From: a virus
IMG/VR virus record: IMGVR_UViG_3300021425_000049
Coordinates: 1 to 54,909 of that record
Length of the DNA: 54,909 bases
Reading direction: 5' to 3' (one strand)
Numbering within the stretch: the stretch's first letter is position 1; each line of letters begins with the position of its first letter. Shown piece by piece: positions 388 through 30,600 of the stretch. The position numbers were made by a program, and so were the translations under genes. The notes beneath the pieces are model-generated. The model did not search any database, had not been told where the DNA came from, and saw only the letters and a program-made list of their open reading frames with translations.

Positions 388-2250
388 ATGGTAAAACTCC
401 TAGAAGTAATTTCGTATAATGACTATGAGATAGTGAATGAAGAAGAAACACCTGACGCATCACGAAGGCCTCCTGTTGGAACTATTATGTCAGCAGGTGG
501 AAACACTTACGAATTCAAAGGAGCTATGTGGGTTAAAATCAACTCTGATGGTAGTGATGGAAGACCTGCATCTCGAGATATACGAGCAGAACTAGATGCT
601 CAGTGGGATGAAGTAAGACGTAATCCTGCTGGAAGTGCTGATGATATGGAATCTGCAAGACGTGGCAGAGTCAATGTTGAAGCAAGAGCTGCCCTTTGGA
701 CAAGCAACAATACAAATCATTTTGTTAAAGTTGGATCTCATGCTTTTAAATTTGATACTGAAGATGCTGCAAAAGATTTCATGCGCACTTGGAATAGAGG
801 CAACAGCACAGTTAGAACTGACATGCTGGAGCAGTTTGGTAACAGGCGAGTAGGAGCAGGCACAAGATTTGCTGAAGGTTGGAGATCTGCCGGATTCCAA
901 AGCATCGATGAAGCTATTGATCGTATGCCTTTTGTTAGAACTATTCTTGCAAACAGATTTGTTCAATCAGTTTTTAAAGTTTTTGAAGTGTTTGGTTGGT
1001 CAACTCTGTTGTTGCAAACTCACGTTGTAAACGTAGCATACTGGAAAGACTTAGCCGACAAAGGCGAATTAACACAACAAGAAGCTGAAGATCTTATTAT
1101 GAGCAGCCAAGCAGCATTTGGTGCTCAAGTTACTGTGTTGCTTCTTGCTATGTTTAGAAGTGGCAGACAAATACGTTTGTTCCTCAGTGGCGCCCGTGTT
1201 ATTACAAACATGTGGGCAGCTGTCGCTGCCAGCACTGGTGTTGGTATACCTGGTGCATTAGCATTAATTGCTGCTAGAGAAACAGCATTTTTCCTAGTTC
1301 AATACCTGTTGACAAGACCTGCAATACAAAGAAAACTTGCAGAAACCATTTCAAGTTTCTTAGACTATACTATTATTAGATTTGCAGTTGAAAGTCTAGC
1401 TGGAATAACTGGCGCAGGACTTGGCGTAGCAAGTAGAGCACTGGATGACATAGGCTTGGGTTTTGAAAATCTCATTAGAGATGGCGGTTGGGAATACACT
1501 CCTAAAGATCAAGAAGATGTAACACAAGCATTTGCAAGCACAGAGTGGGCCAAGTTGATTTTCCAAGATGTGCTGTTTCCTCCTGATAGAAATTTTGAAG
1601 TTCCTTATATTGCTACAGGAGAACGTAGAAGATTATTGCAAAGCAAACTGGGCAGCATGTTTAGAATTACTTTTGAATCACAGTCTGATGCAGAACTGGG
1701 CACACCTTCAAATCCAAAACCAATGTCCAGTCAACAACTAGGACAGTTGAGAGATCATGTGTTTGTATTTTCGTCAACTGAGTATGAAAGATTGAAAGAC
1801 ACACACGAGGTTGTAGCTATATCGGATGTAATGGGCCAACGTCCAGGTGGTAGCAACGAAATGACATTCCTTGCACCAACACCAGAAGCACTTGCATCAG
1901 GACAACCGTTGCCTGAACCTGATAATGTTTTGTTTACATCTAGTGGACAAATGATAGAAAGACCTGCGCCGCAGGATGCAAGTGGAGACAACATTGTAAG
2001 GATTGCTCAAGATGCAATTGACAGTGTGCCTGCAGATCCAAGCACAAGCCCAAGACGTGGATACGAAAGCGGACAAGATACACAACAAGAATTACCCAGT
2101 TACTTACAAAGAGGCAATGATGTTTCGGCTATGAGAAATGCTCAAGCAAACGCTGATGCATATGGAGACATGGGCGACGATATGCCAAGACTGGCTGGAC
2201 CAGATACAATAGTCGGAAGAACTATTAGCAGAAATCAAAGAAGACGTTAA
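388..2250 (+). CDS. Virion-associated protein of unknown function with hydrophobic core
   Basis: A 620-aa protein with no family I can name. The N-terminal 180 residues are soluble and charged. Residues 183-215, 242-256, 270-308 and 328-348 are strongly hydrophobic and could form membrane-active helices. The C-terminal 200 residues are Pro/Gln/Asp-rich and look disordered. Placement among late structural genes, behind a late octamer, suggests a virion or ejected internal protein; membrane segments would fit a role in genome delivery, but that is inference. There is no clear Shine-Dalgarno before the ATG. It converges with the leftward gp26-like gene and the stop codons overlap by 3 nt, with no terminator between them. 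Confidence 0.6.
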   Translation: MVKLLEVISYNDYEIVNEEETPDASRRPPVGTIMSAGGNTYEFKGAMWVKINSDGSDGRPASRDIRAELDAQWDEVRRNPAGSADDMESARRGRVNVEARAALWTSNNTNHFVKVGSHAFKFDTEDAAKDFMRTWNRGNSTVRTDMLEQFGNRRVGAGTRFAEGWRSAGFQSIDEAIDRMPFVRTILANRFVQSVFKVFEVFGWSTLLLQTHVVNVAYWKDLADKGELTQQEAEDLIMSSQAAFGAQVTVLLLAMFRSGRQIRLFLSGARVITNMWAAVAASTGVGIPGALALIAARETAFFLVQYLLTRPAIQRKLAETISSFLDYTIIRFAVESLAGITGAGLGVASRALDDIGLGFENLIRDGGWEYTPKDQEDVTQAFASTEWAKLIFQDVLFPPDRNFEVPYIATGERRRLLQSKLGSMFRITFESQSDAELGTPSNPKPMSSQQLGQLRDHVFVFSSTEYERLKDTHEVVAISDVMGQRPGGSNEMTFLAPTPEALASGQPLPEPDNVLFTSSGQMIERPAPQDASGDNIVRIAQDAIDSVPADPSTSPRRGYESGQDTQQELPSYLQRGNDVSAMRNAQANADAYGDMGDDMPRLAGPDTIVGRTISRNQRRR

Positions 2251-2468
2251 ATCAACGGCAACTTTGTATTCTTAGTGTTCTCAACATTTTCTTTTATAAT
2301 TTTTTGTATTATTTCTCTATCTTCAAGATCCATGTCGTATAGATAATTTTCTACACTAACACCGCCACGCATATACCAAGACACTCGATAGGCTAGATCT
2401 TTTATTGCTTTAATATCTAGTTCGTATCCATCGGCTAGTGTCTGTATCTCGTCATCTTCAAGGAACAC
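2247..2468 (-). CDS. -1 frame extension of the gp26-like gene (tail-chaperone 'T' part)
   Basis: A 73-codon frame, open from a GTG at 2468 to a stop at 2247, in the -1 frame of the gp26-like gene and touching its TAG. The acidic product begins FLEDDEIQTLADGY. The GTG lies in the 5' arm of a perfect 9-bp stem and has only a weak AAAGG upstream, so independent initiation looks poor. The frame is open back through the slippery site at 2480-2486, so a -1 shift would give a fusion of about 353 residues (276 of the upstream protein, then RQRL, then this frame). The likely role is the minor frameshifted form of a tail assembly chaperone, as in lambda GT; a separately translated small protein is the alternative. 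Confidence 0.65.
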   Translation of the reverse strand: MFLEDDEIQTLADGYELDIKAIKDLAYRVSWYMRGGVSVENYLYDMDLEDREIIQKIIKENVENTKNTKLPLI

Positions 2469-2486
2469 TAGCCTTTGACGAAAAAA
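2433..2486 (-). promoter_or_regulatory. Programmed -1 ribosomal frameshift signal
   Basis: On the minus strand the zero frame reads GA-T TTT TTC, a canonical X XXY YYZ heptamer (2486 to 2480). After a 6-nt spacer (2479-2474) comes a perfect 9-bp stem, GGCTAGTGT (2473-2465) with ACACTAGCC (2441-2433), and a 23-nt loop. The zero-frame TAG lies inside the 5' arm. Heptamer, spacer length and stem follow the standard architecture for -1 frameshifting. Confidence 0.75.
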
Positions 2487-3307
2487 TCGGATTGATCAAT
2501 CCTAACTGCAACTTTATCTTCTTTTTCACAGGCTTCACACTGAACATTTTGCGTTGGCATTTGCCAAACTTCTACTTGAGATTCTATGTGTTCTTTTATT
2601 GTGTTATAGAAACTAATATCGTTGTCATCCAAAAATTCTTTTATTTCTAAAATATCAGTTTCTTCAATACCGTCAACGGTAATGCTTTTTATGCTTCTAA
2701 AAATAAACTCCACAGTTAAAGTTGCTATTTGTTGTAGTGTTTCATTTATAAATGCATCTCTCTTTTGTTCGTCGGTTATCTTTTGAGATTGTATTCTCAA
2801 TGCTCTAGACAATGCTATATTACGCTGTTGTGTTTCACTAAATTCTTGATAGGTCAATGGTCTAATTTGCACTACAAAATTTTCAATTTGTATTTGATCT
2901 TTGTATTCTAAACTGTTGTAATAATCCAAAAGTTTTTGAATATCAATGTCATAAGAATTTTCATGTTTACAATGTTTGCATTTATGATTTACAGTTAGAC
3001 CTGACCCGTATGTAGCTAGTCTAATAGCTAACAATAGATAGTCTATATCCAATGTAACCAACTGCATAGGATTTAAAACACTTGGAACACAACTTCTTAT
3101 GTTGTTTGCTGTTGCCTGTCCGTTGATAAGTGCATCTGGTGTTTTGAAAAGTATTTCGTCGTTTGCTGTCATGCTAAACACTGGCAATTCAGTGAAATCA
3201 CCGTTGTTAACCACAGTTGCATCATAAAATTTGCCTCTGCTGGGCAATGTTGCATAGATCTTAGGTTGTCTACGGTATTTCTTTAAGGGACTGATTTCAT
3301 TTTCCAT
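2468..3307 (-). CDS. 26: Baseplate hub / tail assembly protein, T4 gp26-like
   Basis: A 279-aa leftward gene. Features typical of the T4 gp26-like family in marine T4-type phages are LPSRGKFY at 21-28, SMTANDEIL at 45-53 followed by a Gly-containing helix, and the LDIDYLLLAIRLATYG segment at 86-101. Two CxxC pairs (C110/C113 and C257/C260) could bind zinc. The family acts in assembly of the baseplate hub and tail initiation, not as a major virion component. The gene is divergent from the tape-measure gene, the partner expected for a tail chaperone. The 3' end carries a -1 frameshift signal (2433-2486). A late octamer in reverse orientation lies at 3344-3351. Confidence 0.72.
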   Translation of the reverse strand: MENEISPLKKYRRQPKIYATLPSRGKFYDATVVNNGDFTELPVFSMTANDEILFKTPDALINGQATANNIRSCVPSVLNPMQLVTLDIDYLLLAIRLATYGSGLTVNHKCKHCKHENSYDIDIQKLLDYYNSLEYKDQIQIENFVVQIRPLTYQEFSETQQRNIALSRALRIQSQKITDEQKRDAFINETLQQIATLTVEFIFRSIKSITVDGIEETDILEIKEFLDDNDISFYNTIKEHIESQVEVWQMPTQNVQCEACEKEDKVAVRIDQSDFFVKG

Positions 3308-3378: not shown

Positions 3379-5676
3379 TTGGCAGATGCAACAGACATAG
3401 GAATTTTAGGCGATGTAGCAAGATATGCTAGCAGTGCATTAGGCGATGCTGCAAAAGCGTCTTTAGGTCTAGCAGGTAACCTTTTATCTGGCAGTAGCAA
3501 GTTAAGTGATTATAGCGAAGCATTAGCTGTTAATACACCCTTACTTAAAGAATTTTCAACTGTTGTAAAAGGTTTAGTTAAGTTTGCAGAACAAAACTTA
3601 GAAGATTACGAAGGTCTAGCCAGCATGGGTGCGTCTTTTGATGCTGACACAACTCGCATGAGAACCGCAGCAACAAAAATGGGATTAACCATGGAGCAGA
3701 TGACCGAAATGGTTGCTAACAATAGAGAAGGGTTAGCAGCATTTGGTGGCACTGTAAACCAAAGCATGACAGACTTGATTAACTTTAATAATCAAATCTT
3801 AACCAGCGATACCGGAACCTACTTGCGTAGATTAGGAATGAATTTCCAAGATGTAAACGACACATTGATTGCATACCAAGAAATAATGGAAGCCGGAGGT
3901 AGAGGCAACAGTTTAACCGAGTTACAAAGACAACAGGCTGTTGAAGAATTTGCAACAGGCATTGACGAACTTGTAAAACTAACGGGCAAAAACCGTAAAG
4001 AAATAATGGAAGAAATGAAGGAACGTAGACGCTCTGGAGAAATGCAAGCGTTCCTTAATACTCTTGGACCAGAACAGGCTGCTGCTGTTCAAGAACAAAT
4101 CAACACAATGCAGCAAACACTCGGTCCTGTTGCTGCACAAGCATTCCAAGAAATACTTGCATTTGGTGCTCCTATTAACGAAGCTACACAAAATTTTGTA
4201 GCAGGTATGGGCGGCGCAGCTACTGATATGTATGCTGCTGGAGATTTATTTAGATCTGGTAACCTAGATGCATTTGCAGCACAAACCGATAATGCTATAG
4301 GCGCTATGACCGATTATCAAAACTCGACTGAGTTTGCACAAACAGCTATGCTTGGTGGAGTGGGAGGTCCGGTTGCTGAGGCACAGGCTTCTGCATTAGA
4401 AGGTAGTTACGTCTTTAGAAATCGCATGGCAGAACTTGCTGAAGAAACAGGAAGTGTTGTTGAAGCTATGAGATTAGCAAGACAACAAATTGCAGAAGAA
4501 CAAAACTTACAGAGAACTGCTGGCGATAGTGCTCCAAACTTAATTGCTGCTACACAAGACTTACAAGAAGCGACAAGGCAACTAGCAGAAGCTACTCAAC
4601 AGGCAGCATTTCCAAGATTAGAAGAAGCAGGTTTAAGAGCAATCGGAATGATAACAGATTCGTTACCACCTCCGGGAGAAGTTGCATCAATTGTTGCAAA
4701 CACTGCTGATAATTTATTCAATCTAGCAGAACGTGGAATTTACGGCGACATTGATACTGCAAACATGGGCAATGTTAACATTGGTAGTGCTAACGGAGAG
4801 TTAACTCCAGGAGATGTTGCAGGGCTTGGAGCAAGCGGAACACCAGACGACCCTCTTTCTGTTACACAAGTTGATCCGGCAGCTGAGCAAACTGTTGAAA
4901 ATATTGAAGCACTTGATAATAGAACAGCGGCAGTAAATGATGCAATTGAAAGATTGCGAGGCAGTAACGATGCAATGGATGCTACTAGAGTATTAGAAGC
5001 TGAACAAATAATGGAAGGCATAGTAACTGCTAGTGCTGAAAGAGCAGCCGCAGAAGAAACTTTAAATGAAGCAAATGCTACGCTAAGTGAAGCAATTGAT
5101 ACAGGTGTTATTCCTGAAATTAGAGCAGCACAAGATGCTGTAAATGCAGCAGAAGAAGCATTAAACACAAAAATAGAAGAAGAAACACAAATATTAAACG
5201 ATGCACTTGCAGCAACTAGTGATATGATAAGATCATCAATGGAATATACAAACAGACAAATTTCTAGATACGAATCTGATCCAAATTTTGTTGGAGGGTT
5301 TGATTCTGGAGGTAACATTCCTAGCGGAGCGTTTGGTATGGTTGGCGAGTATGGCCCTGAACTAATAGGTGGACCTGCTAACGTAGTAGGAAGAAGAGAA
5401 ACCAGTCAAATGATTTCTTCGATGATGAGAAACATCAGTAGTTTAGCAGATTTACCACAAATGATACAAGACCAAACTGTGCCTGACACCGACGTAAATG
5501 AGATAACTACTAGTAGCAACGATAGAACCATGCAAGCACTGGGATCATTGTTCAGTAGATTAGAAGGTAAGTTAGATCAATTGATTACAATAGAAGCTAG
5601 ATTATCTGACACAGGTGTTAAGACACTGAGAGCAACAAGAGGGCTAACTGGCAATCTCCACAGAGGAATAGGATAA
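3379..5676 (+). CDS. 29: Tail tape measure protein / baseplate hub, gp29-like
   Basis: A 765-aa, Ala/Gln/Glu-rich, mainly helical protein that would set tail length and sit at the hub tip inside the tube. Long heptad-like stretches occur at about 360-420 and 495-615. Near the C-terminus (about 640-675) is the recurrent tape-measure motif, a Gly-rich stretch followed by VGEYGPELIGGPANVV. T4 gp29 is 590 aa, so the tail may be longer or the protein carries extra domains. The start is TTG at 3379 with AGG 8 nt upstream. The stop overlaps the portal ATG (TAATG). The next gene leftward is the frameshifting gp26-like gene, on the other strand. Confidence 0.8.
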   Translation: MADATDIGILGDVARYASSALGDAAKASLGLAGNLLSGSSKLSDYSEALAVNTPLLKEFSTVVKGLVKFAEQNLEDYEGLASMGASFDADTTRMRTAATKMGLTMEQMTEMVANNREGLAAFGGTVNQSMTDLINFNNQILTSDTGTYLRRLGMNFQDVNDTLIAYQEIMEAGGRGNSLTELQRQQAVEEFATGIDELVKLTGKNRKEIMEEMKERRRSGEMQAFLNTLGPEQAAAVQEQINTMQQTLGPVAAQAFQEILAFGAPINEATQNFVAGMGGAATDMYAAGDLFRSGNLDAFAAQTDNAIGAMTDYQNSTEFAQTAMLGGVGGPVAEAQASALEGSYVFRNRMAELAEETGSVVEAMRLARQQIAEEQNLQRTAGDSAPNLIAATQDLQEATRQLAEATQQAAFPRLEEAGLRAIGMITDSLPPPGEVASIVANTADNLFNLAERGIYGDIDTANMGNVNIGSANGELTPGDVAGLGASGTPDDPLSVTQVDPAAEQTVENIEALDNRTAAVNDAIERLRGSNDAMDATRVLEAEQIMEGIVTASAERAAAEETLNEANATLSEAIDTGVIPEIRAAQDAVNAAEEALNTKIEEETQILNDALAATSDMIRSSMEYTNRQISRYESDPNFVGGFDSGGNIPSGAFGMVGEYGPELIGGPANVVGRRETSQMISSMMRNISSLADLPQMIQDQTVPDTDVNEITTSSNDRTMQALGSLFSRLEGKLDQLITIEARLSDTGVKTLRATRGLTGNLHRGIG

Positions 5677-14896: not shown

Positions 14897-17800
14897 ATGA
14901 AGTTTTTTAAGAGACAAACCATACATGAGAGAAAGGTCGGAGACGGTAGTATAATACTGACTGCTGACGGTAATGTTGAAATTACTCCTCCAAGCGGAGA
15001 GGTAACAATAGATGGTAATGTCAACATTTCCGGAGATGCCTCTGGACCAAAAACAACTGATGTATTATATGTTAGCCAAGATGGCGACGATGCAAACGAT
15101 GGGCGCAGCGAAGGAAAGTTTGGTGCTAAAAGAACTATCAAAAGTGCAGTAGAACAGTCTGTTCCTGGAACAACAATTATTGTTGCACCAGGTGATTACT
15201 ATGAAAACAATCCAATTACTTTACCTGACTTTGTAACTATAACAGGGCAAGGCGAACTACGTAATACAAGAATATTTCCAAAAAATAACACACAAACAAT
15301 TTTTTATGTAGGTAACGGTTGTTATCTATACCAGTTAACATTCCGTGGTTTAAGATATCCAGGCTGGTGTGCAGAAATACGTCCAGGCACACTTTGCACA
15401 ACCTCACCTTATATTCAAAACTGCACAAACATGAATGGTCCTTGGCTTAATGATGGAACAGAATTTATACCTTTTGAAACAGTTCAAATAGAAGGCATCG
15501 AACCTAGTGCAAGACCACTGATGGTTGAGGATTATCCAGATTTACCATTTGACAAACAAATAAATGACACTGGCGGCGGTGGAGGTATGTATGTCGATGG
15601 TGACGCATACGATCCTGCTTCGCTTGTGTTTTCATTTGTTGCAGACGCATTTACGCAGATTGCTCAGGGTGGTATAGGATTCTGGATTGATAACTTTGGT
15701 TATACTCAAATCGTTTCTTGCTTTACAGTTTTCTGTTCAACAGGATTTAAAACTACAAACGGCGGTTACCTGTCAATTTCAAACTCAGTTAGTGACTTTG
15801 GATTAGAAGGTTGTGTTGCTGACGGGTTTTATCCAATTGCATACACCACAGCAAAACCTACCCAAGACTATTTTTCAAGTGTAGCTAGTGTGACTGTAGA
15901 TAATCCTGGCGCAGGGTATACATCAGCACCTACAGTTACTTTTGAAGCACCTGAAGGTGCTGGCGGAATTACTGCTACAGGCACAGCAGACATTGATAAC
16001 ACAACAGGTAGAGTTTCTGGAGTAACAATTCTAAATGGAGGAAGCGGGTATACTAGAATTCCTTCAGTTACATTTTCAGGAGGCGGACCTACTGTTGACG
16101 CCCAAGGTATTGTAAACTTATCAAGTAACACAGTTATACAAATTGACAGTTTGAGAGACAAGCCGGCAACAGGTAGTATTATAAAATTCCAAGAGGACGA
16201 CACATACTATTTCATTACTGGTTCTGAAATAGTTCAGCCTCCTTTTGTTTACGATGAGGACGTATGTAGAAGAGATACAAGGCGAATAATTGATGCTGTA
16301 ACCGGGGATGTTGTTCTAGGAACAACCTATCAATCTCAAGCAGCAGCTACAAGTTATTTACGTGCTACAGCAAGCAAAGTTTTACTCGATCAATTAGCAC
16401 CTACAGTTTATGCATTAGAAGCAGCTAGAGACTACATGAAAGCTGAAATTACTAATGAAGCAATGAAGGATGAAATTGATCAGCGCTTTAACATTATTAC
16501 CAGCACATTAAATGCGGGTGATAGCAGTGTTATACCAGAAGCTGGCAGTGATTTGGTTTTAAATGATCTACCAGATATTGATCCAGGTATAAAACAAGCT
16601 AAAGACAACATCTTAGATAATAGAGATTTTATTATTGAAGAAGTAACTGCATACATAAACGATCAGTTTACAGAACTCAGCTACAACCAATTGCAATATG
16701 AAGAAGATATGCAAAATCTAATAAAAGGTATTGCAATGTATGTTGCTTTAGGCAGCAATCAACATGTTGTTAGATTAGGACAAGAAATTGAGATTAGAGC
16801 TAGATTTAAAACATTGTATATCAACAGTTTTAAATTTATACAAAATGCACTAGAAAATCTTGCTCAAGTCCAAGCAGATGCTACAGCTTTAGAGCGTGTA
16901 ACTGAAGGAATGAATACGTTTGTTAACATCACAGACGATGGCGATAGCAGTCTTATTGTAATCGATATTCCAAATCACGATGGTGCATCAGGAACTTCAA
17001 ATCCAAAAGACGCAAAGGATCAATTGCTTGCAAACAAAGATTTTATAACAGCTGAATTTGTTGCCTATATACAAAATGAAAATCCTGATTTTACAATTGA
17101 TGCAGCACAGTTTGAATTAGACTTTGAAAGATTTGTAGAAGCATTAGCATTTGACGTGTTGTATGGTGGCGATAGTGCTACAGTGCAAGAAACCAAATAC
17201 TATTATGGAAATTTTGATTTTACTGCTCTAGAGTCAACTGAATTACAAACAATGGTTGATGCATTTGCAAGAATGAGATTTGTATTAGGAAGAGTTGTTA
17301 GAGGACTATTTGTAACAAAAACACCAGGCAATGCTGAATCACAGGACTTTTCACAACTAACAGCAACAGCCAGTGAAGCTGATGCTATTGATGCTTTGTT
17401 ATTCAACACACAAGATGTTATTGAAAATCTTACACTTACAAGATTGCCTACTGAAAAAACATATCCAGTTTTTGAAACAGAAGCGCAAGCATTGCAAGAT
17501 GCAGCAAACACAGTATTAGGCCAAGAAACAATAATTATAGCTAATGCACAAGCAGATATAAATGCTACATATCCTACGCTTACTTACAACATAGACAAGT
17601 GTAAACGTGATGTAGGATATATTATTGATGCTGTGTATATTGATGCACAATTGGAATCAAACCACAACAGTATTACAGCCGGTCTTGCTTATCACAGAGC
17701 AAACACTGCGTATTTGAATGTTGAACAAAAGCCAGCAACAATTATAGCATTATTAGAAGCTAAAAGATTGAGTGTAGATGCAGCAGCTAGAGATGTAAAT

Positions 17801-20800
17801 TTTGCTAATAGAGTAGATGCTCTTTGGACAGATGTAATCAATCTAATACAATATGATCAGTTACCAAGCGAAGGAACTGAATATACTGTTCCTGGCCCAG
17901 CAAGCAATGAACTTATATACACACGAGATCAGTTGGTAGCCAACAGAGATTTCTTAAAAGCAGAAACCACTGCATACATTAACAACAACTACTTTGTATA
18001 CGACCAAGCCAAGTGCGAAAGAGACACTGGTTTAATTATTGATGCTGCTTATTATGATGCTGCATTAGGAACGAATTACAATGCAGTAACAGCAGGTCTT
18101 GCTTATCAGAGAGCAAACAGTGCATATGTTCAAAGCGATCAACAAACAGAAACTGTTGCTGCAATCAATTTTGCAAAAGGCGAAGCTAGCACAGCAACAG
18201 CAGGCGATGCTACTGCACAAAGTCGTGTTGAAGCAGCATTTGATGAAGTAGTTGATATTATTGTTAACGGAACAACCAGCACAGATGATGCTGCTGATAC
18301 ACTAGTATGGAACACAGTAAACTTACAAACTGCATTTCAGGTTCAAGCAAAAAATCAACTGCAAAATAACAGAGAATTTTTAGCAGCAGAAGCAGTAGCA
18401 TTTATTGAAAATAACTATGTAAACTTTACTTACGACCAGGCCAAGTGTGAAAGAGATATTGGCCTAATGTTGGATGCAGTAGCACTTGATGTTGCACTTG
18501 GAACAAACTATAACAGTGTTACAGCAGGTCTTGCTTATCAGAGAGCAAGTAGCAGTGTAGTTCAAGACGGTCAGCTATTACAGACAAAAGCAGCAATTGA
18601 ATTTTTAAGAGATGCAACAGTTCTTTTAGGATTTACTCAAGATGCAGAAACAAGAGTATTAGCAGGTTTTAACGAAATAATTGATATACTTGAAAATGGA
18701 GTTGTTAGCACAGATACAGCAGCAGATGCATTGGTATTTCCAACTCCAACAGGAGCAAGTGCAGACAAAGTTGCAGCAAAAGATCAATTAATTGCAAATA
18801 AAGAATTTATAAAAGATGAAATTATAGCATGGATTGCTGCAAACTTTCCAAGTCTAACATATGACTCAACCAAATGCGAAAGAGATGTTGGTTATATTGT
18901 TGATGCATTGTGTCATGATATTTTATACGGAGGAAACTTTGCAACTCGAACAGTGGCAAACAGCTACTTTGTAGATGGAGTCAGTCAACTAGGCGATCCT
19001 GCAGAAGAAGCTGCAACGGCAGATGCTTATGGAAGATTAGCAGATATTGTAGGCGATATTGTAATTGAAGCTGCTGTAGTTAAAACACCAGCAAACGCAT
19101 TAAATCAAGACACAACAGGCACTCCAGCAAGCTCTACAGAAGCAGATGAAGTATCGGGCTTAGTCCAAGTTATAAGACAAGTTATTGCAGATGGCAATTT
19201 AACAAGTCTTCCAACAGAACAACTTCCTAGTGTGCTTTGGGCAACAGTAGATTATCAGCAAGGTTACAATACTATTAAAGGCAACAAAGTATTGCTTCAA
19301 ACTGATACAACTGACTTTATATCAGATACCTTCCAAAGTTTTACATTTAACACTGATAAATGTAATAGAGACACAAAATACATTGTTGATGCACTAACGT
19401 ATGATATCTTTTATGGTGGTAATAGTGCAAGTGTTGAAGCAGCAAGAAGCTACTTTGTTGGTGCCGTTAGTCAAGTTGCTGGACAGCAAACCGAAACAGC
19501 AAATGCCTTAGCATATATTTCTACAATAATTAGAGATGTGTTACTAGATGTAGCGGTTGCAAATCCAGAACAAACTGATGAAACACAAGATACAACTGCA
19601 AGCACTGCTACTAATGATGAAGTTACAAAAGCACAATCATTACTACAGACTTTCCAGGATGTAATTATCAACGGAATTGATAATCTTCCTACTGTAACTT
19701 ATCCAAATGCAAATCCAATTACACCAAGTGAATTAAGCATACAGGCTGCTGTTGATAATTTAGCATCTGAAAAATCTACTATTATTACAGATACAATAGA
19801 CTTTATTTCAACTACATACAATGGATTTAGTTATGACGAAGATAAATGTGCTAGAGATGTAGGATACATTGTTGACGCTGTTGTTCACGATGCATTATAC
19901 ACAGGTAATTATGCTACACTGGTAGCAACTAATGCTTATTTCTTAGGAGCAGCGCAATACATTCCTCCTAGTCAGGTTTCACAAACTGTAGATGCATTTA
20001 CACATTTGAAATCAGTAGCAGGTGAATGTATTAAAGGTGTTGCTGTTACTCCTACACCAGGAAATGCAGAAACACAAGTTTTAGGTGGAAATTACGGCAC
20101 CACAATAGAAGAAGCAACATGCGATGATTTATTTGATCTTGTAATTGATGCTATTAATACAGGTGGCACAGTAGGACCTCAGTATACACAAGTATTACCA
20201 GACTTTACTTGGTTAAGTGATGCAACAAAATTGGTTGCAGCAGATCTACTAAGTCAAAAAGCCATAATACAAAACACTGTTATTACATACATTACTGATA
20301 ACTTAATTGGTTTCGAATACAATATTGACAAGTGTAAAAGAGATACAGGTTATATTATTGATTCTGCAATATACGATATGATGTATGGCGGTAACAAGCA
20401 AACTAAACGTGCAGCAGAAGCATATTATAATGGAGCAATCCTAGGTGCTGCAAAAGTCGGAAATGCAGATCAAACCTTAGTAACTGCCTATACATATTAT
20501 CATTTGGCAAATGTAATGCAAAAGGTAGCAAACAATGTTGCTATCACAAAGAGTTATAATAACCCGGAAACGCAAGATTTAAGTATACCAGATGGATCTA
20601 CCATAGGCGGTGATACATTAAAAATACTAGTTGATAGAATAGGTTTAGCTATACAACAAGAGTATACTACAGGTTGGACACAACTAGAACACAACTATCT
20701 ATTAGGTAGTAGTGAATACTTAGAAGATCGAAATACAATTCTCGAAGCCGAAGATTCAATTGTAGATAATACTATTGCAGACTTGAATTTACAATTTGGT

Positions 20801-21571
20801 GGTATTGCTAACATTACAGTATTCCCAGGAGTTGTAAGTGTAACTACAGATAAATTTGCTGCACTTTATAACGTGTCAACTATTTCAACATCGGGTCATG
20901 CCTTTGAATACGTAGGTGCTGGTATAACATACAATGCACTTCCGTTCTTTGGCGGAACTGCAATACCTGAAGAAGAAATTAAAGAATCAAACCAAGGTAA
21001 AGTGTTTGCCGGAGGCACAGTTGACCAAATTGGTAACTTTAGAGTTGGTAACTTCTTTGCAGTAAATGCTCTTAATGGTAGTATTACACTTAACGCTAAT
21101 CAATTAAACCTAAGCGGTTTAACAAGTATTGGACCACTGATTAGAGACGGTGTGCCAGTTGGTGTTGAGATGAAAGAAATCAGCAACAACCCAGCATTGT
21201 TAGCAAGCACAGGTGCAATAGATGCAAACACTGTTCCTACACAAGCAGCAGTTTCAACATATGTTGAAAACAGATACTTAAACAAACTTACAGGTGGCAC
21301 TGTAAACGGTAGCACAACGTTTGATATTGACGTAACTGTTGACGGAACTTTAATTCTAACAAATAACGATTTAGAAGTTCAATACGGCGGAACGGGTGTA
21401 AGCGAATTCACAGAAGATGGTATTTTGTATGGTGACACTGCTAACCCTATAAAAGTTACGGCAGCAGCAGGCACATCCGATGCAACAGACAGTTTCCAAA
21501 TACTCACTGTAACAAGTGATGTTGATAGCACTCCAATATGGACTGACACAATTGATGGTGGTAGCTTCTAA
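14897..21571 (+). CDS. Giant fibre/appendage protein 1 with beta-helix and KCxRD repeats
   Basis: A 2224-aa protein. Residues 50-270 have the DGDDANDGRS...TIIVAPGDYYENNPI...FVTITGQGE pattern of a right-handed beta-helix (pectate-lyase-like) head. About 325-420 holds two short Gly-rich repeats (NPGAGYTSAPTVTFE and NGGSGYTRIPSVTFSGG). From 452 to about 1900 run repeats of a helical module with the motif Y-x3-KC-x-RD-x4-I-x-DA. A C-terminal part (HAFEYVGAGITYNALPFFGG onward) resembles a segment of the next giant gene, so the two are paralogues. No enzyme active site is visible. It probably forms an appendage or fibre for host contact. GGAAG lies 7 nt before the ATG. A terminator overlaps its stop codon. 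Confidence 0.7.
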   Translation: MKFFKRQTIHERKVGDGSIILTADGNVEITPPSGEVTIDGNVNISGDASGPKTTDVLYVSQDGDDANDGRSEGKFGAKRTIKSAVEQSVPGTTIIVAPGDYYENNPITLPDFVTITGQGELRNTRIFPKNNTQTIFYVGNGCYLYQLTFRGLRYPGWCAEIRPGTLCTTSPYIQNCTNMNGPWLNDGTEFIPFETVQIEGIEPSARPLMVEDYPDLPFDKQINDTGGGGGMYVDGDAYDPASLVFSFVADAFTQIAQGGIGFWIDNFGYTQIVSCFTVFCSTGFKTTNGGYLSISNSVSDFGLEGCVADGFYPIAYTTAKPTQDYFSSVASVTVDNPGAGYTSAPTVTFEAPEGAGGITATGTADIDNTTGRVSGVTILNGGSGYTRIPSVTFSGGGPTVDAQGIVNLSSNTVIQIDSLRDKPATGSIIKFQEDDTYYFITGSEIVQPPFVYDEDVCRRDTRRIIDAVTGDVVLGTTYQSQAAATSYLRATASKVLLDQLAPTVYALEAARDYMKAEITNEAMKDEIDQRFNIITSTLNAGDSSVIPEAGSDLVLNDLPDIDPGIKQAKDNILDNRDFIIEEVTAYINDQFTELSYNQLQYEEDMQNLIKGIAMYVALGSNQHVVRLGQEIEIRARFKTLYINSFKFIQNALENLAQVQADATALERVTEGMNTFVNITDDGDSSLIVIDIPNHDGASGTSNPKDAKDQLLANKDFITAEFVAYIQNENPDFTIDAAQFELDFERFVEALAFDVLYGGDSATVQETKYYYGNFDFTALESTELQTMVDAFARMRFVLGRVVRGLFVTKTPGNAESQDFSQLTATASEADAIDALLFNTQDVIENLTLTRLPTEKTYPVFETEAQALQDAANTVLGQETIIIANAQADINATYPTLTYNIDKCKRDVGYIIDAVYIDAQLESNHNSITAGLAYHRANTAYLNVEQKPATIIALLEAKRLSVDAAARDVNFANRVDALWTDVINLIQYDQLPSEGTEYTVPGPASNELIYTRDQLVANRDFLKAETTAYINNNYFVYDQAKCERDTGLIIDAAYYDAALGTNYNAVTAGLAYQRANSAYVQSDQQTETVAAINFAKGEASTATAGDATAQSRVEAAFDEVVDIIVNGTTSTDDAADTLVWNTVNLQTAFQVQAKNQLQNNREFLAAEAVAFIENNYVNFTYDQAKCERDIGLMLDAVALDVALGTNYNSVTAGLAYQRASSSVVQDGQLLQTKAAIEFLRDATVLLGFTQDAETRVLAGFNEIIDILENGVVSTDTAADALVFPTPTGASADKVAAKDQLIANKEFIKDEIIAWIAANFPSLTYDSTKCERDVGYIVDALCHDILYGGNFATRTVANSYFVDGVSQLGDPAEEAATADAYGRLADIVGDIVIEAAVVKTPANALNQDTTGTPASSTEADEVSGLVQVIRQVIADGNLTSLPTEQLPSVLWATVDYQQGYNTIKGNKVLLQTDTTDFISDTFQSFTFNTDKCNRDTKYIVDALTYDIFYGGNSASVEAARSYFVGAVSQVAGQQTETANALAYISTIIRDVLLDVAVANPEQTDETQDTTASTATNDEVTKAQSLLQTFQDVIINGIDNLPTVTYPNANPITPSELSIQAAVDNLASEKSTIITDTIDFISTTYNGFSYDEDKCARDVGYIVDAVVHDALYTGNYATLVATNAYFLGAAQYIPPSQVSQTVDAFTHLKSVAGECIKGVAVTPTPGNAETQVLGGNYGTTIEEATCDDLFDLVIDAINTGGTVGPQYTQVLPDFTWLSDATKLVAADLLSQKAIIQNTVITYITDNLIGFEYNIDKCKRDTGYIIDSAIYDMMYGGNKQTKRAAEAYYNGAILGAAKVGNADQTLVTAYTYYHLANVMQKVANNVAITKSYNNPETQDLSIPDGSTIGGDTLKILVDRIGLAIQQEYTTGWTQLEHNYLLGSSEYLEDRNTILEAEDSIVDNTIADLNLQFGGIANITVFPGVVSVTTDKFAALYNVSTISTSGHAFEYVGAGITYNALPFFGGTAIPEEEIKESNQGKVFAGGTVDQIGNFRVGNFFAVNALNGSITLNANQLNLSGLTSIGPLIRDGVPVGVEMKEISNNPALLASTGAIDANTVPTQAAVSTYVENRYLNKLTGGTVNGSTTFDIDVTVDGTLILTNNDLEVQYGGTGVSEFTEDGILYGDTANPIKVTAAAGTSDATDSFQILTVTSDVDSTPIWTDTIDGGSF
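16250..20700 (+). repeat. KCxRD repeats in giant protein 1
   Basis: Clear copies of Y/F-x3-KC-x-RD begin at residues 897, 1035, 1179, 1322, 1484, 1646 and 1808, with a variant at 452 (VCRRD) and worn copies near 595 and 733. The last four are spaced exactly 162 residues apart; earlier ones are 138-144 apart. The short type continues AGLAYxRA, the long type continues with an aromatic-rich Y-F segment. The DNA copies have diverged, so the duplications are old. Confidence 0.8.
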
Positions 21572-21679: not shown

Positions 21680-24600
21680 ATGGCAACAAAGATTAGACAC
21701 AAGCGAAGTGCGGTCGCGGGTAAACAACCCCTAGTATCTCAATTAGATTCAGGCGAATTAGCAATTAACACAGCAGATGGTAAAGTTTTCCTACTGCGTG
21801 ACGATTCAACAGTTCAAGATATTACAAAACGTATTTTTGACAATGATACAGAAATTGTTGTCACCGATCAAGGTGCAGAGAATGTAGCAGAAATAAATGT
21901 TAGAATGAACGGAGTTGATACTGCTCAATTTACAGCAGCAGGTATGAACTTGTATAATGATTTAGATATCGAAAATGCAAAAACTTTAACATTCAAAGAA
22001 CTTACCGCAGCAGGCGACGACGGTGTAGGTATTAAAGCACCGGATGTGTTAGACTCAGGTTACAATATGACATTGCCTCCGTCACAAGGAACAGTGGGTC
22101 AGATATTAGCAACAAACGGAAGCGGTGAATTATTTTTCCAAGATGCTGATATCTTTGGAGGAAACACAGTATATGTTTCGCAAGAACAAGGTGATGATGC
22201 TAACGATGGACAGAGCGCTCCAGTTAGAACTGTTAAAAGAGCCTGTCAAATTGCCTCCGGGTTGGTTTACAATGCAGACGGTAGTATCAACTTTAAACGT
22301 GTAAACATCAAAGTTGCGGTTGGCGACTATACAGAACAAAACCCAATTATTGTTCCAGATAACACAGTTATCAAAGGCGACGGTTTGCGTGGTTGTATTA
22401 TCCGTCCTGCAAACGCCAACTTGGACATGCTACGTGTTCGTAACGCATGTTACTTTGGTGAATTTACGTTCCGTGATGGTGTAGACAACAACTTTGTTCC
22501 TACTATTACAGCAGACTATGCCGTGGCATTTGACGATCCTTTTGATCCTGCTGTAACAGACCGTGCAGATTATACAAATCTACCAGATACAAGACCAACA
22601 ATCTTTACATCACCATATATTCAGAACTGTTCGATTATTTCGTTCTTAGGTATGAACGGTGCTAAGATTGACGGTTCAAAAGTTGAATCACCCAACGTTC
22701 CGACATACGGTATTGAGGCTGAGAATCCGGTTATTGGTGCTATACCTGAACAAGGTAAGTCAATGGTTGCTAACGCATTTACTATTCTATCATTTGGTGG
22801 AACAGCGTGGCGACTAACCAACGATGCTTATGCACAGATCGTGTCTTGTTTCGAAATTTTCCTACTCAACGGTGTTTACTGTCAGTCAGGCGGATATTGT
22901 TCAATTACCAACTCTGCTACAAACTTTGGTTTATATGCTCTTAGAGCTAGTGGGTTTTCGCCAAAAGCATTCCAATTTGATAGAAGTTTTGTTACAGCAA
23001 CCGGTGCTGCTGACGGAAAACAAACAGTAAGCATTGTAGGTATTAATCGTGACGCTCCTGTTGAAGAATTTGTTTTACGCTTTAGAGAATCAGAATATAA
23101 GAAAGCATATGAGTTACTTTTATCAAACAAAGATCTAATTGCTTCAGATGTTGTTACATGGATTAACGGACAAATCAGTGCAGCAACACCTAGTATCTGG
23201 GCAGGCTTTACATACAATGAAGACAAATGTAAAAGAGATGTTCAAAAAATATTAGATGCAATTAGATATGATATTTTATTCAACAGTAATTACAGAACAA
23301 TTAGTGCAGCATTACGCTATTTTAACGGTAATGGAACATATTTCTTAAACAACCAAGTCGACCAAACTGTTGCAGCTTTTGCTCAAGCAAAAACGTATAC
23401 AGCTAACTATTTGTCAGATGCAACTGCGACCAGCAGAGCAAATGCGCTGTGGGATGAAGTAATTGACATTATTCAAAATGGTGAAGGTAATGCTGATGCA
23501 TACAGCTATCCTACACCAACAAGCGGCACTGATAATGCTAGTGATACTGGTTATTTAAATGCAGCTACCCAATTAACAAACAACACTGCATTTATAAAAG
23601 ACGAAGTAAACAGCTGGATTGCAGATCAGGTATCCGGAGAAATAGCACCTTTTACAAGTAGTTTTGTTTACGACACTGCAAAATGTGCAAGAGACATTGG
23701 TCTTATAATTGATGCGTTAATTTATGACTTAACCTACGGCGGTAATTTACAAACTTACGAAGCAGCACTTGCATACTTTGTTGACGGTGTAGCACAATAC
23801 GGTAGCGGCCAGTTAGAAGAAACTGTTGCTGCTTATGGTAGATTGAAAACAGTAGTTGAACAAGTTATTGTTGAAACTGCGGTAACAACATCAAGTGGAA
23901 CTGTAGAAACACAAGACACAACAGCAGATGCTGGTAGTGCAGCCGCAGCAACCACAGCCGGCGATAGAATACAAGAAATTATTGATTACCTAAACGATTC
24001 GTCAACTCTTCCAACTAGAATTGAGCCGGATCTTACTTGGGTAAACAGTAATCCGGAATATAGTGCCTATGCAGAATTAGACACCACAGGTCAAATTAAT
24101 ATAGCACAAAATGTTACACAATGGATTAATGAACAAATCCAGGCTAACATTTGGTATGGATTTACATACGATGCATCCAAGTGTAACAGAGATACTCAAC
24201 TTATTGTAGAAGCTGTTGCAAAGGACACTTGGGACACAGGTAACAGATATTCACGTAGTGCTGGTCTTGCATACTATACACGTAACTTGCAAGATAGTTC
24301 TCAGATAACAATCAGTGGGCAGGAATTACAAACTATTGCTGCTATTGATTATGCTAAAACAGAAGCATTAACGTATATTTCAAGTTTGGCAACAGCAGTG
24401 CAAGATTTTGTCGGAGCAAGTTTTGATATTGTTACTACAATTATTAATGATCCTAATGACTTGCCAGATCCTACTGAAGTAAGTAGTGCAGGCGATATTA
24501 CAAATAATTACAAAACTACTCCTACAGAAACAACATTTAATGCTGCCACAGCAGTCAATGCAACTACTAACATTATAACAATTGTAGGACATGGATTTAC

Positions 24601-27600
24601 AAACGGACAAAAAGTTATTTACGATCCAAATGGTAATGCAGTAATACAAGGACTTGACGACGAACAACAATATTATGTCAAACTTCTTAGTGAAGATGAA
24701 TTTACACTAGCGTTTGACGATAGTTTGGATTTTGATGTTAACATTATTTCTACAAGCACAGGCACACACAAATTCCTTTCTGGTGTAATAGAATTCTTTG
24801 TTGACGAGATTTTAAGTAGTCACACAACTTACCAAACACTAGAATTAGAATCTGGATCTGAAGGATTTGAATTTGTTCCTGGTAGAGCAATTACAGGCAC
24901 AACAGGATCAAATAATAACAGTGCTATTGTTACAAGTTGGACACCTAGAGATCGTTTACTTGTAGTCAGTATTGAAGAGGTTGCAGTAGGACAAAGTCTA
25001 CTGCGTATCCAATTTGACGAAACAAGTGTTATTGATTCGGACCATACAAGTGGCACACCTAATACTAATATTGGTGTTAACGAAGCTGCTTCTAAACTAG
25101 GACTAGGCACAGCAACATTCAGTGTTACAGCTACAGACGGAAGTAGTGCATTGTCTAATCTATCAAACCTGCCAGAAGTGCAATGTTGGTTCCACAGGCC
25201 TTCTGTTGTTAACTCATCTGCACACACTTGGGAATATGCAGGTTCTGGAACAGACTATAATGCATTACCACAAAACGGTGGTAACACTAGATCAGAATAC
25301 GAACAGTTTGAAGAATTGCCAGGACGAGTTTATTCATCAGGAACAAACGAACTTGGTGACTTTAAAGTTGGTGACTTTATTACAGCGTTTAACAGAACTG
25401 GTAATATTACCTTTAGAAACAAAGTGCAGGTGGACGAACTTGATGCACTGAGATTGAGCTTGTCAGATGTTGCTATTGAAGAAATTTCAACCAGTGTTAA
25501 CTTGGGTGACGATGAAATTGGCGGACCTGCTGATAGTAGACTTCCTACACAGTTAGCAGTAAGAAGCTTTATTAGTAACAGACTAGGTGGCTTTGTTGAC
25601 AAAACTGTATCTACTGCGGCCGTGCCGGGTGCTATTGTTCAGTTGAACGTCAATGGCCAGCTAAACCCTGATTTGATTCCGGCCACACGTCAGTTTACAA
25701 ACACAAATACACCAGGTTACCAATCACGACTAGAACAAGTAGACGATATTCCAGCTGTTGATTTGAAAGCTGGTGATATTGCTACTGAGAACTACGAACA
25801 GGTAGAACTTGCATTGAGCGGCATCATCACCGCTAATGACGGCGATGAAATAACACAACCTGGTGTAGCAGGAGCCGTGGCGTATTCAAAAGGCAACTAC
25901 AGCCTAAGCACTAACATACTTGTTGTTACACAGGGCGGTGCCTGGGATGATAACGAAGACTCAACAGGAGATCCATGGGAAGTAAGTGCAGGAAATCTTT
26001 TTGTAAATGGCGTAGATTCAGGCGTAAACATTACATCTAAAGGACCAAGCACAGAGATTGTTGACAACTGGTTCTTACGTAGTTCAAATTCAAGTCAGTT
26101 CTTGGTATTAGATGCAACTCAAAGTTATACGTTTACCACTGATGAAACATGTAGTTTGACATTTGCAGAACGTAACAGCGATATTGCAACTGTAACAACC
26201 AGTGCTGCACACAATCTACAAGTAGGTAATACAGTTCAAATTTTGAACACAACAGACGAAACATTTAATGAAAATGGTCTAGTTTTAAGTGTTCCTAGCT
26301 CTACGACATTTACTTACACAAACGTAGACAGTGCTGATCCTACAAAAGCAAGTGCAGCAGCAACAGGAACAGTTAGAACTATTGTTACCTCTGCAGACGG
26401 TAATGCTCAAGGTGCTGTTACAGAATTCCGCAGTGGTATTGCTGTAAACGTAGACAACGCAAATATCGTAGGCGGTAGTGGTTACCAGCCTGTTTTAGGA
26501 ACACTGGTTTACGAAAGTGTGCCATTACAAGCCAAAACAGGGTCAGGAACAGGAGCAACAGCTAACCTTACAATCACAGCAGGACAGGTAACAGATGTTG
26601 ATGTAAACAGAGGTGGAACCGGGTATGCTGTGGGCGATCTATTAGAAATCAATGCCAGTGATGTGGGTGGCACAGGAAGCGGATTTGAAATAGAAGTAAC
26701 AGCTATTGAAAAACGTGCATATGTGAATATTTTAGGTGGCGAACTGTTTGTTGCTAGTGCATCATCATTAGACTTTGTGGAAGATAACACTGCTGTTGCT
26801 ACTGCAAAAGAAATAAACCTAGACGATGTTATAACACATAATTTCTTAGCTGGTGATGTAAGTGGTGGCGGTAATGTTGACTATACAACTTATAGAATAA
26901 CAATTCCAAACCACGGAATGAAAAATGGCGATCCGGTATTGTATGATACTATAGGAAACGTTCCAATTGGCGGATTGTTAAACGAACAGGTATACTATGT
27001 AAAGCGTATTGATAGTAATACTATTGAATTATATGAAGGCTTTGCACTACTTAATCAAGTTGAATTTACAAGCACACCGGCTAACAACAATCATAACATC
27101 ACACGTCAAACAATAAACATAACAGATAATAGTATTATTGTTGAGGATCACGGTTTAACCACAGGTGATGCTATACGTTTTGAATCATTAACTGATGGAT
27201 CAAGTGCTAACGAACTGTTCGGCACAGTTGGCGCAGGCGGACCAGTTGACACCGGCTCTAGATTCTTTGTTGGTTCTGTTACTACAAACTCATTTACAAT
27301 ACACGCACTGCGTTCTGACGCATTGAGTAGCATAAACGACTTGGTAACAAATGCTCAAGATATTACAACAATAGGTGTAGGAACTGCTGAAGTTATTACT
27401 AACAATGTTCAAGTTGAAAGTGTAATTAATACATCAAGTAGATTGCTTGATAACTGGAACACACTTGCTGTTACAAACATTGACGCAGAAAATATTATTT
27501 CGGGAACTATTTCACCTTCGAGATTGGCAAGTGCAGGAACACCTAACACAGATACTTTCTTGCGTGGTGATAGTAGCTATCAAACTGTTGTTCAAAGTCT

Positions 27601-30600
27601 TAAAGTTGCAAATACAACAGACAACCCAATTACACTTACAGGATCGAGTTTAAGTGGCGAATTCTATGGTGATCCAGTTAACATTGGTATTTCCAACGTC
27701 GACCTAGATGTTCTTGGAACATTTTCAACATTAGGTGTTGCTAGATTCTTACAGTCACAATTTGATGTGGATGCAGGCGGATCAGGACAAGTATTCATCA
27801 AAGACGGTGTTGTTGACGCAGGAACGTTGGATAGTTTAGACAGTGCTTACTTCCTCAATCCAAACAACCTAACCAGTCTTGTTCCTGTAACTAGAGGCGG
27901 AACAGGCATTGGAACTTATACTGTTGGTGCTATTGTATATGCACAATCAACATCAACACTAAATGAATTAGAAATAGGAAGACAAAATACTTTCTTAAGA
28001 TCAAACGGCACTACACCAGAGTGGGGCACAGCACTTGATCTTGCTGAAGGATTGGACGTTGGATCAGCAGCACTTACATCATCAAGCACAGGTGCTGGTA
28101 GAGTTTATAACAGCAATGTAAGTAGTTTAAAAATTGGAGGCGATGCAACCAATATTACAATTGGTAGTGCAGCAGGATCAAGAAATTTATTTACATTTAT
28201 TGCTAGCTATGAAGCAACAATTTCTAGAGATGTTGCAGTAAATTTAGAAAGCATAGTTGCAAACACTGCTGAAGCAGCAGGCAATGGCGACAAAGAAATT
28301 ATCTTATCAGATACAACTGGCATTTTGGCTGGAATGATTGTAACTGGTAGTGTGGCTATTCCTGCTAATACAACTGTAAGTGGTGTCACTGACGATGCAA
28401 TATATCTAAGTAATGCTACAACAGGAAGTATACTTACTAGCACTGCACTAACCTTTACTTATACTCCTTATACTTTAGGTATATCAGTTGGTGATAGAAT
28501 TAATATTGCAACCAGTGGTGTAACCAATCTAGACGGAACATGGCCTGTTAGTGGTGCTACGGCAACTGCTACATCTTTTACAATTAGAACAGACGATCTG
28601 GTTACAGCAGATCCGTTAGATGTTCCTGCAGGATCAGCTACCATTAACGGTAACCTAGTTCTTCGTAACGAAAGTATTGTAATAGGACAAGCAGAAACAG
28701 ATACTGCACCTAACGATGGAATTATAAAAGGGGTAAACGCACTTGGAACAGATGTTTCAGGTGGTGATCTTACTATACAAGCAGGGTTAGGCACAGGCGC
28801 TGCTACAGGCGGAGATGTTATTATCAAAACGGGAGACGTAGGTTCTACCGGTGATATACAAAATGATGCACAAGTAAGAATGCGTTTTAATGCAGGCGGC
28901 GATACAGAAGTTACTGGATACACAAATTTCTCAACAGATGGTGCAATAAACTTTCCTGTTGGTAATACCGCAGCTAGAACATCCCCACCAGCAGCAGGTG
29001 ATGCAAGATTCAACAGTGAGATTGTAGCATTTGAAGGCTACGATGGAACAAACTGGGCACCACTAGGTGGTGTAATTGATGTCGATCAAGACACAAAAAT
29101 CATTGCAGAGACAAGTGCAGGTGCTGATAACGATGACTTAGACTTCTTTACAGCAGGTGTCCAAAGATTGTCGATTGACCAGGATGGTGATTTTAGATTT
29201 GGTGCATCTATTAACAAAGTTATAATGGACGGCGCAACCGGCGACACTAACATTGCAGGCACATTAACTGTAGAAGGTGACTTTGTTGTAAATGGAACAA
29301 CCACAACAATCAACGCTACAACACTTACAGTTGATGATAAAAATATTGAACTAGGATCGGTTGCATCACCAACAGATGCAACAGCTAACGGTGGTGGTAT
29401 AACACTAAAAGGTGCTACAGATCACACAATAACATGGTCAAATGCTAACGCTAGTTGGGATTTCAGTGAACATGTAAATATTGTTAGCAACAAAGAATAC
29501 AGAATTGCAGATACCAAAGTGTTAGATGCAACATCTCTAGGTGCTAACATTGTTGATAGTAGCCTAGTAACCAGTGCGTTAACAACTGTTGGAGCTCTAG
29601 ACTCAGGTAGCATTACCAGCGGCTTTGGAAATGTTAATATCGGAACAAATACATTTACTGGTAACGGTAGTGGATTGACTACGCTAAATGCTAGCCAACT
29701 TACAACTGGCACTGTTGCAGGTGCTCGCTTAGGCGGTAATCAAACAATGGCAGGTGTTAAAACATTCAGTAACACCAGTTCTGCAACTTCAACTACAACA
29801 GGTGCTGTTAGAATAAGCGGAGGCTTAGGTGTTGCAGGAGCATTGTTTGCTGGTAGTCTAAACACAGCAGACGGTAGTGGTATAGGAAACTTGAATGCAA
29901 GTAACCTGGATAGCGGAACTGTTCCAAACGGTAGAATCACAGGCATATACAGTAACCTAACTGGAACTGGTGCTTTAAACCAAGGTAGTATTACAAGCGG
30001 CTTTGGAAATATTAATATTGGAACAAGCACATTTACAGGTAACGGTAGCGGTCTAACAAACGTGGATGCAGAAACACTAGATGGGTTAGATAGCACAGAC
30101 TTCTTACAACGCACTGGCGGAACAATGACTGGTAACATCACTTTCAGTGATGACCAAGAAGGTGTTGTTTGGAGTAGAAACACCGACGGTGCAAGTATTA
30201 GATTCTACAACACAGGTGATGGCGATAGTAACAGTAGACTAGAATTTAACATCAACGACAACGCCAACGAAGACTTCCGTTTCACATATACTCAAAGTGG
30301 AACAACAACAGAACTGCTTCGTATGTTACCAGATGGTGGACAAAATGGTATCACATTCCGTGGAAACACTGTTTGGCATGCTGGCAACGATGGACCAGGG
30401 TCAGGACTAAATGCAGACCTATTTGATAACCTAGGTAGCGGATCATTCTTACGCAGTGATGCAAATGACAGTTTCTCAGGAACACTTAGTGGTAGCGGCG
30501 CTATCAACATCAGCGGTAATATTACAGCTAATGTATTCACCGGAGATGGTAGCGGACTAACAGGTATCAGTGCCGACAATGCTAACACATTAGATGGATT

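Follow-up and report, generated by a model that had tools for sequence, protein, structure and literature searches.

In phage lambda, the proteins G and GT are a short, abundant form and a longer −1 fusion made near the 3′ end of a gene that lies beside the tape-measure gene, with the stop codon of the short form just past the slip site (PMC5009743). The lambda heptamer is G GGA AAG, and the chaperone gene is located upstream of the tape-measure gene in one operon. In T4, two forms are produced from separate genes without any slip site, namely gp26 and its paralogue gp51, which possesses an extra C-terminus. In 2022, Vladimirov, Gautam and Davidson recognised both proteins as the tail-assembly chaperones of T4-like phages, according to two later papers that cite their work (PMC10885494, PMC12846349). 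The passages of these papers on T4-like phages also mention that some members carry a short gene plus a longer fusion gene in place of frameshifting (PMC10885494), and attribute poly-T slippery sequences to the TAC-N genes of T4-like phages (PMC12846349). Finally, the chaperones of the Vandenendeviridae and Andersonviridae, such as those of phage Adele, have a conserved −1 extension at a poly-T site (PMC12846349).

The window, i.e., the whole stretch of 54,909 nucleotides that was analysed (IMG/VR virus record IMGVR_UViG_3300021425_000049), carries a gp26-like gene whose predicted frameshift belongs with the known G/GT-type chaperone frameshifts, the protein family being gp26/gp51. Like lambda G/GT, the locus combines a short form and a predicted longer −1 fusion near the 3′ end of the gene, a stop codon of the short form just past the slip site, and a position beside a probable tape-measure gene. 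It differs from lambda in the heptamer, T TTT TTC, which is followed after about 6 nt by a stem-loop, in the protein family, which looks unrelated (PF12322, with two CxxC pairs), and in the orientation of the chaperone gene, which is divergent from the tape-measure gene. T4 gp26 is homologous to the short form, whereas the two forms would come from a single gene in the window. The cyanophages have a matching gene pair with a T TTT TTC site, gp26 and a short “gp51 hub assembly catalyst”, their −1 extension being annotated as a small separate gene ahead of a large gene of tape-measure size. Unlike the window, the cyanophages have a shorter extension that stands closer to gp51 (the extra C-terminus of T4 gp51 is the counterpart of this extension), the heptamer is always at −10, and the gp26 gene is co-directional with the large gene that follows. 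The Vandenendeviridae and Andersonviridae are other phage families with a GTTTTT motif, and are likened here by description.

The Slip Site and Its Two Predicted Products

The features of the locus, in positions of the window and with their support, are:

2468..3307, minus strand: gp26-like zero-frame ORF, 279 aa, putative short form (G- or TAC-N-like); ORF, PF12322, phrog_150 and AF2 model
2480..2486, minus strand: slippery heptamer T TTT TTC, phase 0; sequence, invariant in 95/95 relatives and 76/76 cyanophage-type loci
2474..2479, minus strand: spacer GTCAAA, 6 nt, from heptamer to stem; sequence, equal length across the window's clade
2465..2473, minus strand: 5′ arm of the stem, GGCTAGTGT, holding TAG 2470..2468 and GTG 2468..2466; covariation in 14 unique sequences
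2433..2441, minus strand: 3′ arm, ACACTAGCC, of the same stem; covarying pairs across 14 unique sequences
2247..2480, minus strand: −1 extension, 77 codons plus stop, helical domain of the predicted 353-aa fusion (GT- or TAC-NC-like); open frame, homologous extension in relatives, AF2 pLDDT 86
3379..5676, plus strand: gene next door in divergent orientation, probably for the tape-measure protein (765 aa), the presumed client; phrog_1538, motif GMVGEYGPELIGG, position beside gp26 in most jumbo relatives

The heptamer (2486..2480) is read in the zero frame with the phase X XXY YYZ, the minus-strand codons across the site being GAT TTT TTC GTC AAA GGC TAG, and it sits 16 nt ahead of the stop codon of the gp26-like ORF (TAG 2470..2468). 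Open from 25 nt ahead of this stop to 221 nt past it, the −1 frame ends at 2247. A slip at the heptamer would join 276 residues to 77 at the junction SDFF/RQRL (F-F-R-Q-R-L), and the resulting fusion of 353 aa would share its N-terminus with the 279-aa form. This agrees with the fusion of about 353 aa proposed in the first-pass annotation of this DNA. The extension was given there as 73 codons; the open −1 frame is confirmed, with 77 residues from the slip, 73 being the count from the GTG. Likewise, the limits of 2433–3307 proposed for the element hold as positions, but the element runs on to 2247.

Downstream of the heptamer, GGCTAGTGT (2473..2465) pairs with ACACTAGCC (2441..2433) in a perfect 9-bp stem with a 23-nt loop, at a distance of 6 nt that falls within the 5–9 nt for a stimulatory structure. 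The first-pass annotation had described this same heptamer in the right phase, spacer, stem and loop, all of which are present, and had noticed that the stem hides both the stop codon and the GTG, which the 5′ arm does contain; it had placed the stem before the zero-frame stop, and here it was mistaken, as the stem lies across it. The stretch behind the heptamer has a folding energy of −17.9 kcal/mol (z −2.9) in RNA folding. A search of Rfam gave no match at the slip site, the only one (E 0.33) being elsewhere on the plus strand. At its other end, the −1-frame ORF overlaps by 4 bp (2247–2250), stop to stop, with a convergent ORF of 620 aa (388..2250) that has no profile match except one of E 0.48.

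The reading favoured here, with a probability of roughly 0.9 judged from the sequence, is a programmed −1 ribosomal frameshift that yields two tail-assembly chaperones, one short (G-like) and one long (GT-like). Most ribosomes would terminate at TAG 2470..2468, giving the 279-aa short form. Some ribosomes would pause at the stem with tRNA-Phe on the TTT and TTC of the heptamer; both tRNAs would slip one base back (to TTT TTT), and the −1 frame would then be read to 2247, giving the 353-aa form. The sequences themselves show the signal, how it is conserved and covaries, that the extension is homologous between relatives, and that the product matches T4 gp51; we infer that frameshifting occurs in this phage, and its efficiency.

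Gene Identity and Proposed Chaperone Function

The window gene is a gp26 homologue by its sequence: the 279-aa product matches PF12322 (T4_baseplate) with an E-value of 9.8e-16 and 58.5 bits (cut-off 24.5), and phrog_150 (baseplate hub, gp26 family) with an E-value of 3.3e-17 and 63.8 bits. Its AF2 model (pLDDT 90) has significant matches to T4-like gp26 and hub-assembly proteins in BFVD, while solved structures gave no match by sequence or fold. The −1 extension is modelled as helical (pLDDT 86), and a fold search with the extension alone found no significant match. The gp26-like protein contains two CxxC pairs (C110/C113 and C257/C260), which are invariant in 11 fusions and almost invariant in 40 relatives; the pairs suggest metal sites, and CxxC-type motifs also occur in part of T4 gp26/gp51.

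The gp26-like gene has T4-type structural genes as neighbours in the window: portal gp20, protease, major head protein, sheath and terminase. The tail sheath protein (40896–44258; phrog_10581, E 2e-237) has 1120 aa, far above the usual T4-type sheath size, and a second sheath/stabiliser-like protein of 616 aa is encoded on the opposite strand from it (35723–37573). Two giant tandem ORFs of 2224 and 3253 aa (14897–21571 and 21680–31441) are also located inside the structural module.

The divergent neighbour of 765 aa is probably the tape-measure protein, as judged from a weak match to phrog_1538 (tape measure; E 7.4e-5, residues 636–688) and a tape-measure-like C-terminal motif, GMVGEYGPELIGG, of the GEYGPEL type; profile comparison with T4 gp29 and the cyanophage neighbours was uninformative between clades. 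The tape measure had been presented earlier as the immediate, divergent neighbour; the gene is indeed divergent and adjoining, and its identity as a tape measure is only probable. By tblastn, the gp26-like gene was found in 62 phage records at 24–35% identity, mostly of jumbo phages, whose hosts include Pseudomonas, Klebsiella, Salmonella, Escherichia and Agrobacterium. Among the jumbo relatives whose loci were retrieved, most show the portal, a large structural protein, and then a divergent gp26 with a small ORF behind it. When the small second-frame product was used as the query, a match at the corresponding place was obtained only in Atu_ph07 and Phosso.

If the pair acts as lambda G and GT do, the tape-measure protein would be coated by the N-terminal part, the helical C-terminal extension, present on a minority of the subunits, would recruit tail-tube subunits, and both forms would leave before the virion is completed. 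This chaperone action is an inference, and a different role can be considered, in which gp26 is a structural subunit of the baseplate hub and some hub copies gain a C-terminal domain through the frameshift, with no chaperone pair being made. The databases name the gp26 family “baseplate hub”, and the CBB record labels CBB_250 a “structural protein”. The gp26 homologue CBB_250 does not appear in the mass spectrometry table of the CBB virion, in which its neighbour in the tape-measure position, CBB_251, is represented by 29 peptides (PMC5259590). The record of PA5oct gp336 carries no mass spectrometry note, whereas those of the portal and the large neighbour do. Both facts are consistent with a chaperone. 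Nor is the gp26 homologue among the proteins detected around the portal of phAPEC6, where the list has portal gp230c and gp231c and then goes on to gp238, gp232 being identified by gene order (PMC7247149). The lack of a match of the family to solved structures by sequence or fold also speaks against a structural role, as does the reassignment of gp26/gp51 to tail-assembly chaperones in 2022 as cited in the later papers; such a role is improbable.

Conservation of the Slip Site and of the −1 Extension

The comparison comprised 95 homologous loci with an intact 3′ end (the window, IMG/VR contigs and eight cultured jumbo phages), or 81 after dereplication. The heptamer T TTT TTC is present in phase in all 95, down to about 25% protein identity, at 10 to 43 nt before the stop codon, and the −1 frame continues for about 194–227 nt beyond the stop except at contig ends. 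A homologous −1 extension stands behind the heptamer in nearly all relatives. At the codon level, xxT TTT TTC is kept in 81/81 dereplicated loci: the two phenylalanines are always encoded by TTT TTC, and the codon before them always ends in T although its residue varies (N, D, S, H, R or Y). The codon usage of the same genes leads to an expectation of about 0.11 per sequence for T TTT TTC, a figure for which no p-value is claimed because the sequences are related. As a background, 165 of the 738 unique ORFs of at least 150 aa in the same loci contain an in-phase heptamer in their last 45 nt; inspection of the C-terminal residues showed that all but two are family members, which leaves two among about 575 other ORFs, neither with a long −1 extension. 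A chance heptamer is ruled out by this background and by the codon-usage expectation.

A separate survey of cyanophage-type loci, in which the query was the cyanophage-centred zero frame with the extension left out, showed that T TTT TTC precedes the stop by exactly 10 nt in 76/76 unique loci. The frame relation is thus constant over 95 plus 76 loci, and a sequencing error or a pseudogene is ruled out. The same heptamer is found in Munch, CBB and Cassandra, and also in S-RIM8, ACG-2014f and Vibrio phage D486. Some distant members have variants at the matching place that are all slippery as well, T TTT TTT in XacN1 and Caulobacter phage Cr30, and T TTT TTG in Rhizobium phage RL38J1. There are two groups with a gp51-like −1 extension and no canonical heptamer before the stop: the Ackermannviridae (loci L100 and L193), which show GAR ATT TTC ATT TAA, and Vibrio phage D503 (L195), which shows CTT TTC AAG TAA. 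By these sequences, the feature is not specific to the window phage: apart from the Straboviridae examined, it is general in the T4 superfamily, the exceptions being the Ackermannviridae and Vibrio phage D503, which have no canonical heptamer.

The Stimulatory Structure

Within the window's clade, the stem is located at a constant distance from the heptamer and is fully paired in 14/14 unique sequences, with compensatory double changes in four of its nine pairs. Its covariation reaches 0.376, against a mean of 0.141 in shuffled data (0/500 as high) and no more than 0.129 with the partner slid. Another stem is found in a second clade, e.g., GCCTAACAAG/CTTGTTAGGC, with a 6-nt spacer, a 28-nt loop and compensations of its own. 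More generally, the 60 nt starting 3 nt past the heptamer have a mean folding z of −2.29 over 79 unique loci, compared with −0.24 in matched upstream flanks and −0.10 in downstream ones (Wilcoxon p ~2e-10 and ~8e-11, respectively). The z is below −2 at the stem position in 54% of the relatives, so that a strong stem is not found in every one of them, and the contrast is weaker in 73 cyanophage-type loci (−1.41 vs. −0.01). A stimulatory structure behind the heptamer is therefore usual, not universal.

The first-pass annotation had proposed a G/GT-type chaperone frameshift in the gp26-like gene and had pointed to covarying stem bases in relatives as a way to verify it. The heptamer, spacer and stem are conserved where the second frame is kept, the stem bases covary in the window's clade as described above, and relatives do not keep the GTG as a start codon; with these three results, all derived from comparison of relatives, the proposal is supported.

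Frameshifting Versus Other Ways to Read the Second Frame

The second frame could instead be a separate gene, translated through coupled termination and reinitiation at the GTG that overlaps the stop codon (TAGTG), or at an ATG in relatives (ATGA). Overlapping start and stop codons do exist in the window, Atu_ph07, Phosso and 121Q, and several jumbo phage and cyanophage records annotate a separate small ORF. Nevertheless, 43 of the 81 loci have no ATG, GTG or TTG from −12 to +30 of the stop, and in the other 38 no Shine-Dalgarno-like sequence precedes the first candidate start. In PA5oct there is no candidate −1-frame start up to 80 nt past the stop, and in RaK2 one is found only deep inside the frame. 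Moreover, the extension opens with a conserved FFR exactly at the slip point, and reinitiation leaves both this homology across the junction and the invariant in-phase heptamer unexplained. Because of the loci without a start, the missing Shine-Dalgarno sequences and the FFR at the slip point, separate initiation cannot be the general mechanism, and reinitiation is very improbable. An independent start at the GTG, neither conserved nor preceded by a Shine-Dalgarno sequence, is ruled out.

Poly-T runs can induce slippage of the RNA polymerase, and a run of six T is present at the site, but the least probable account, a transcriptional slippage that fuses the two frames in the mRNA, has against it that six T are short for bacterial slippage and that the invariant trailing C, the codon phase and the covarying stem, which lies about 6 nt further on, agree with tandem slippage on the ribosome. 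Programmed −1 ribosomal frameshifting fits all the loci, and the support for it is as strong as sequence evidence allows.

Relation to gp26 and gp51 of T4 and Cyanophages

In T4, gene 26, which encodes 208 aa, lies directly against gene 25, while its divergent neighbour is gene 51 (249 aa). No slip site was found in T4 or the other Straboviridae examined, where the two forms are separate genes. With hhalign, T4 gp26 aligns with residues 1–203 of gp51 (E 1e-21), the alignment between gp51 and the cyanophage fusion runs from one end to the other (E 1e-16), and the cyanophage extension alone aligns with the gp51 C-terminus (E 3e-10). By profile comparison, cyanophage gp26 matches T4 gp26 (E 1e-20) and the window's family matches the cyanophage proteins, FFR junction included (E 1e-12). 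According to these profile alignments, gp51 is the counterpart of the frameshift product, and gp26 that of the normal one. The direct link from the jumbo/marine phages to T4 is fainter: their fusion profile is weak against single T4 gp51 or gp26 sequences in hhalign and becomes clear only via the cyanophage sequences, and their extension is marginal against T4 gp51 C-termini, with a global score of 14.3, where 60 shuffles reached 7.1 at most, and no significance in local mode.

A comparison published in 2010 described cyanophage and marine vibriophage gp51 as being without the first ~200 residues (PMC3037559). Several cyanophage records (L098, L103 and others) contain short “baseplate hub assembly catalyst / gp51” genes, annotated separately from gp26 in the records sampled. 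These short genes are probably the −1 half of gp26, and if so, this explains why the first ~200 residues are missing from them. On the whole, it seems somewhat likely that jumbo phages, marine phages, cyanophages and Pootjesviridae represent the general and ancestral state of the T4 superfamily, in which the chaperones come from a frameshifting gp26 gene, that T4 and its close kin, as the exception, lost the frameshift after a gene duplication which fixed the long form as gp51, and that the “truncated gp51” of cyanophages is the −1 half of gp26.

Concluding Remarks

The first-pass annotation knew of no frameshifted pair in the gp26 family. This novelty is reduced by the naming of gp26/gp51 as T4-like chaperones in 2022 and by the attribution of poly-T sites to T4-like TAC-N genes, as far as the citing passages tell. 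What is added here is the breadth of an almost unchanged signal, the covarying stems and a simple account of the “truncated” gp51, part of which may already be in the 2022 work. The wider family of T4 keeps the frameshift signal almost unchanged, and in many phage records a pair of ORFs labelled “hypothetical” or “hub catalyst” should be merged into a single frameshifted gene. The apparent loss of the first ~200 residues in cyanophage and marine vibriophage gp51 (PMC3037559) would be accounted for in the same way. Finally, the genetics available in T4 allow a direct test of how evolution switched between a single gene with a frameshift and a pair of genes.
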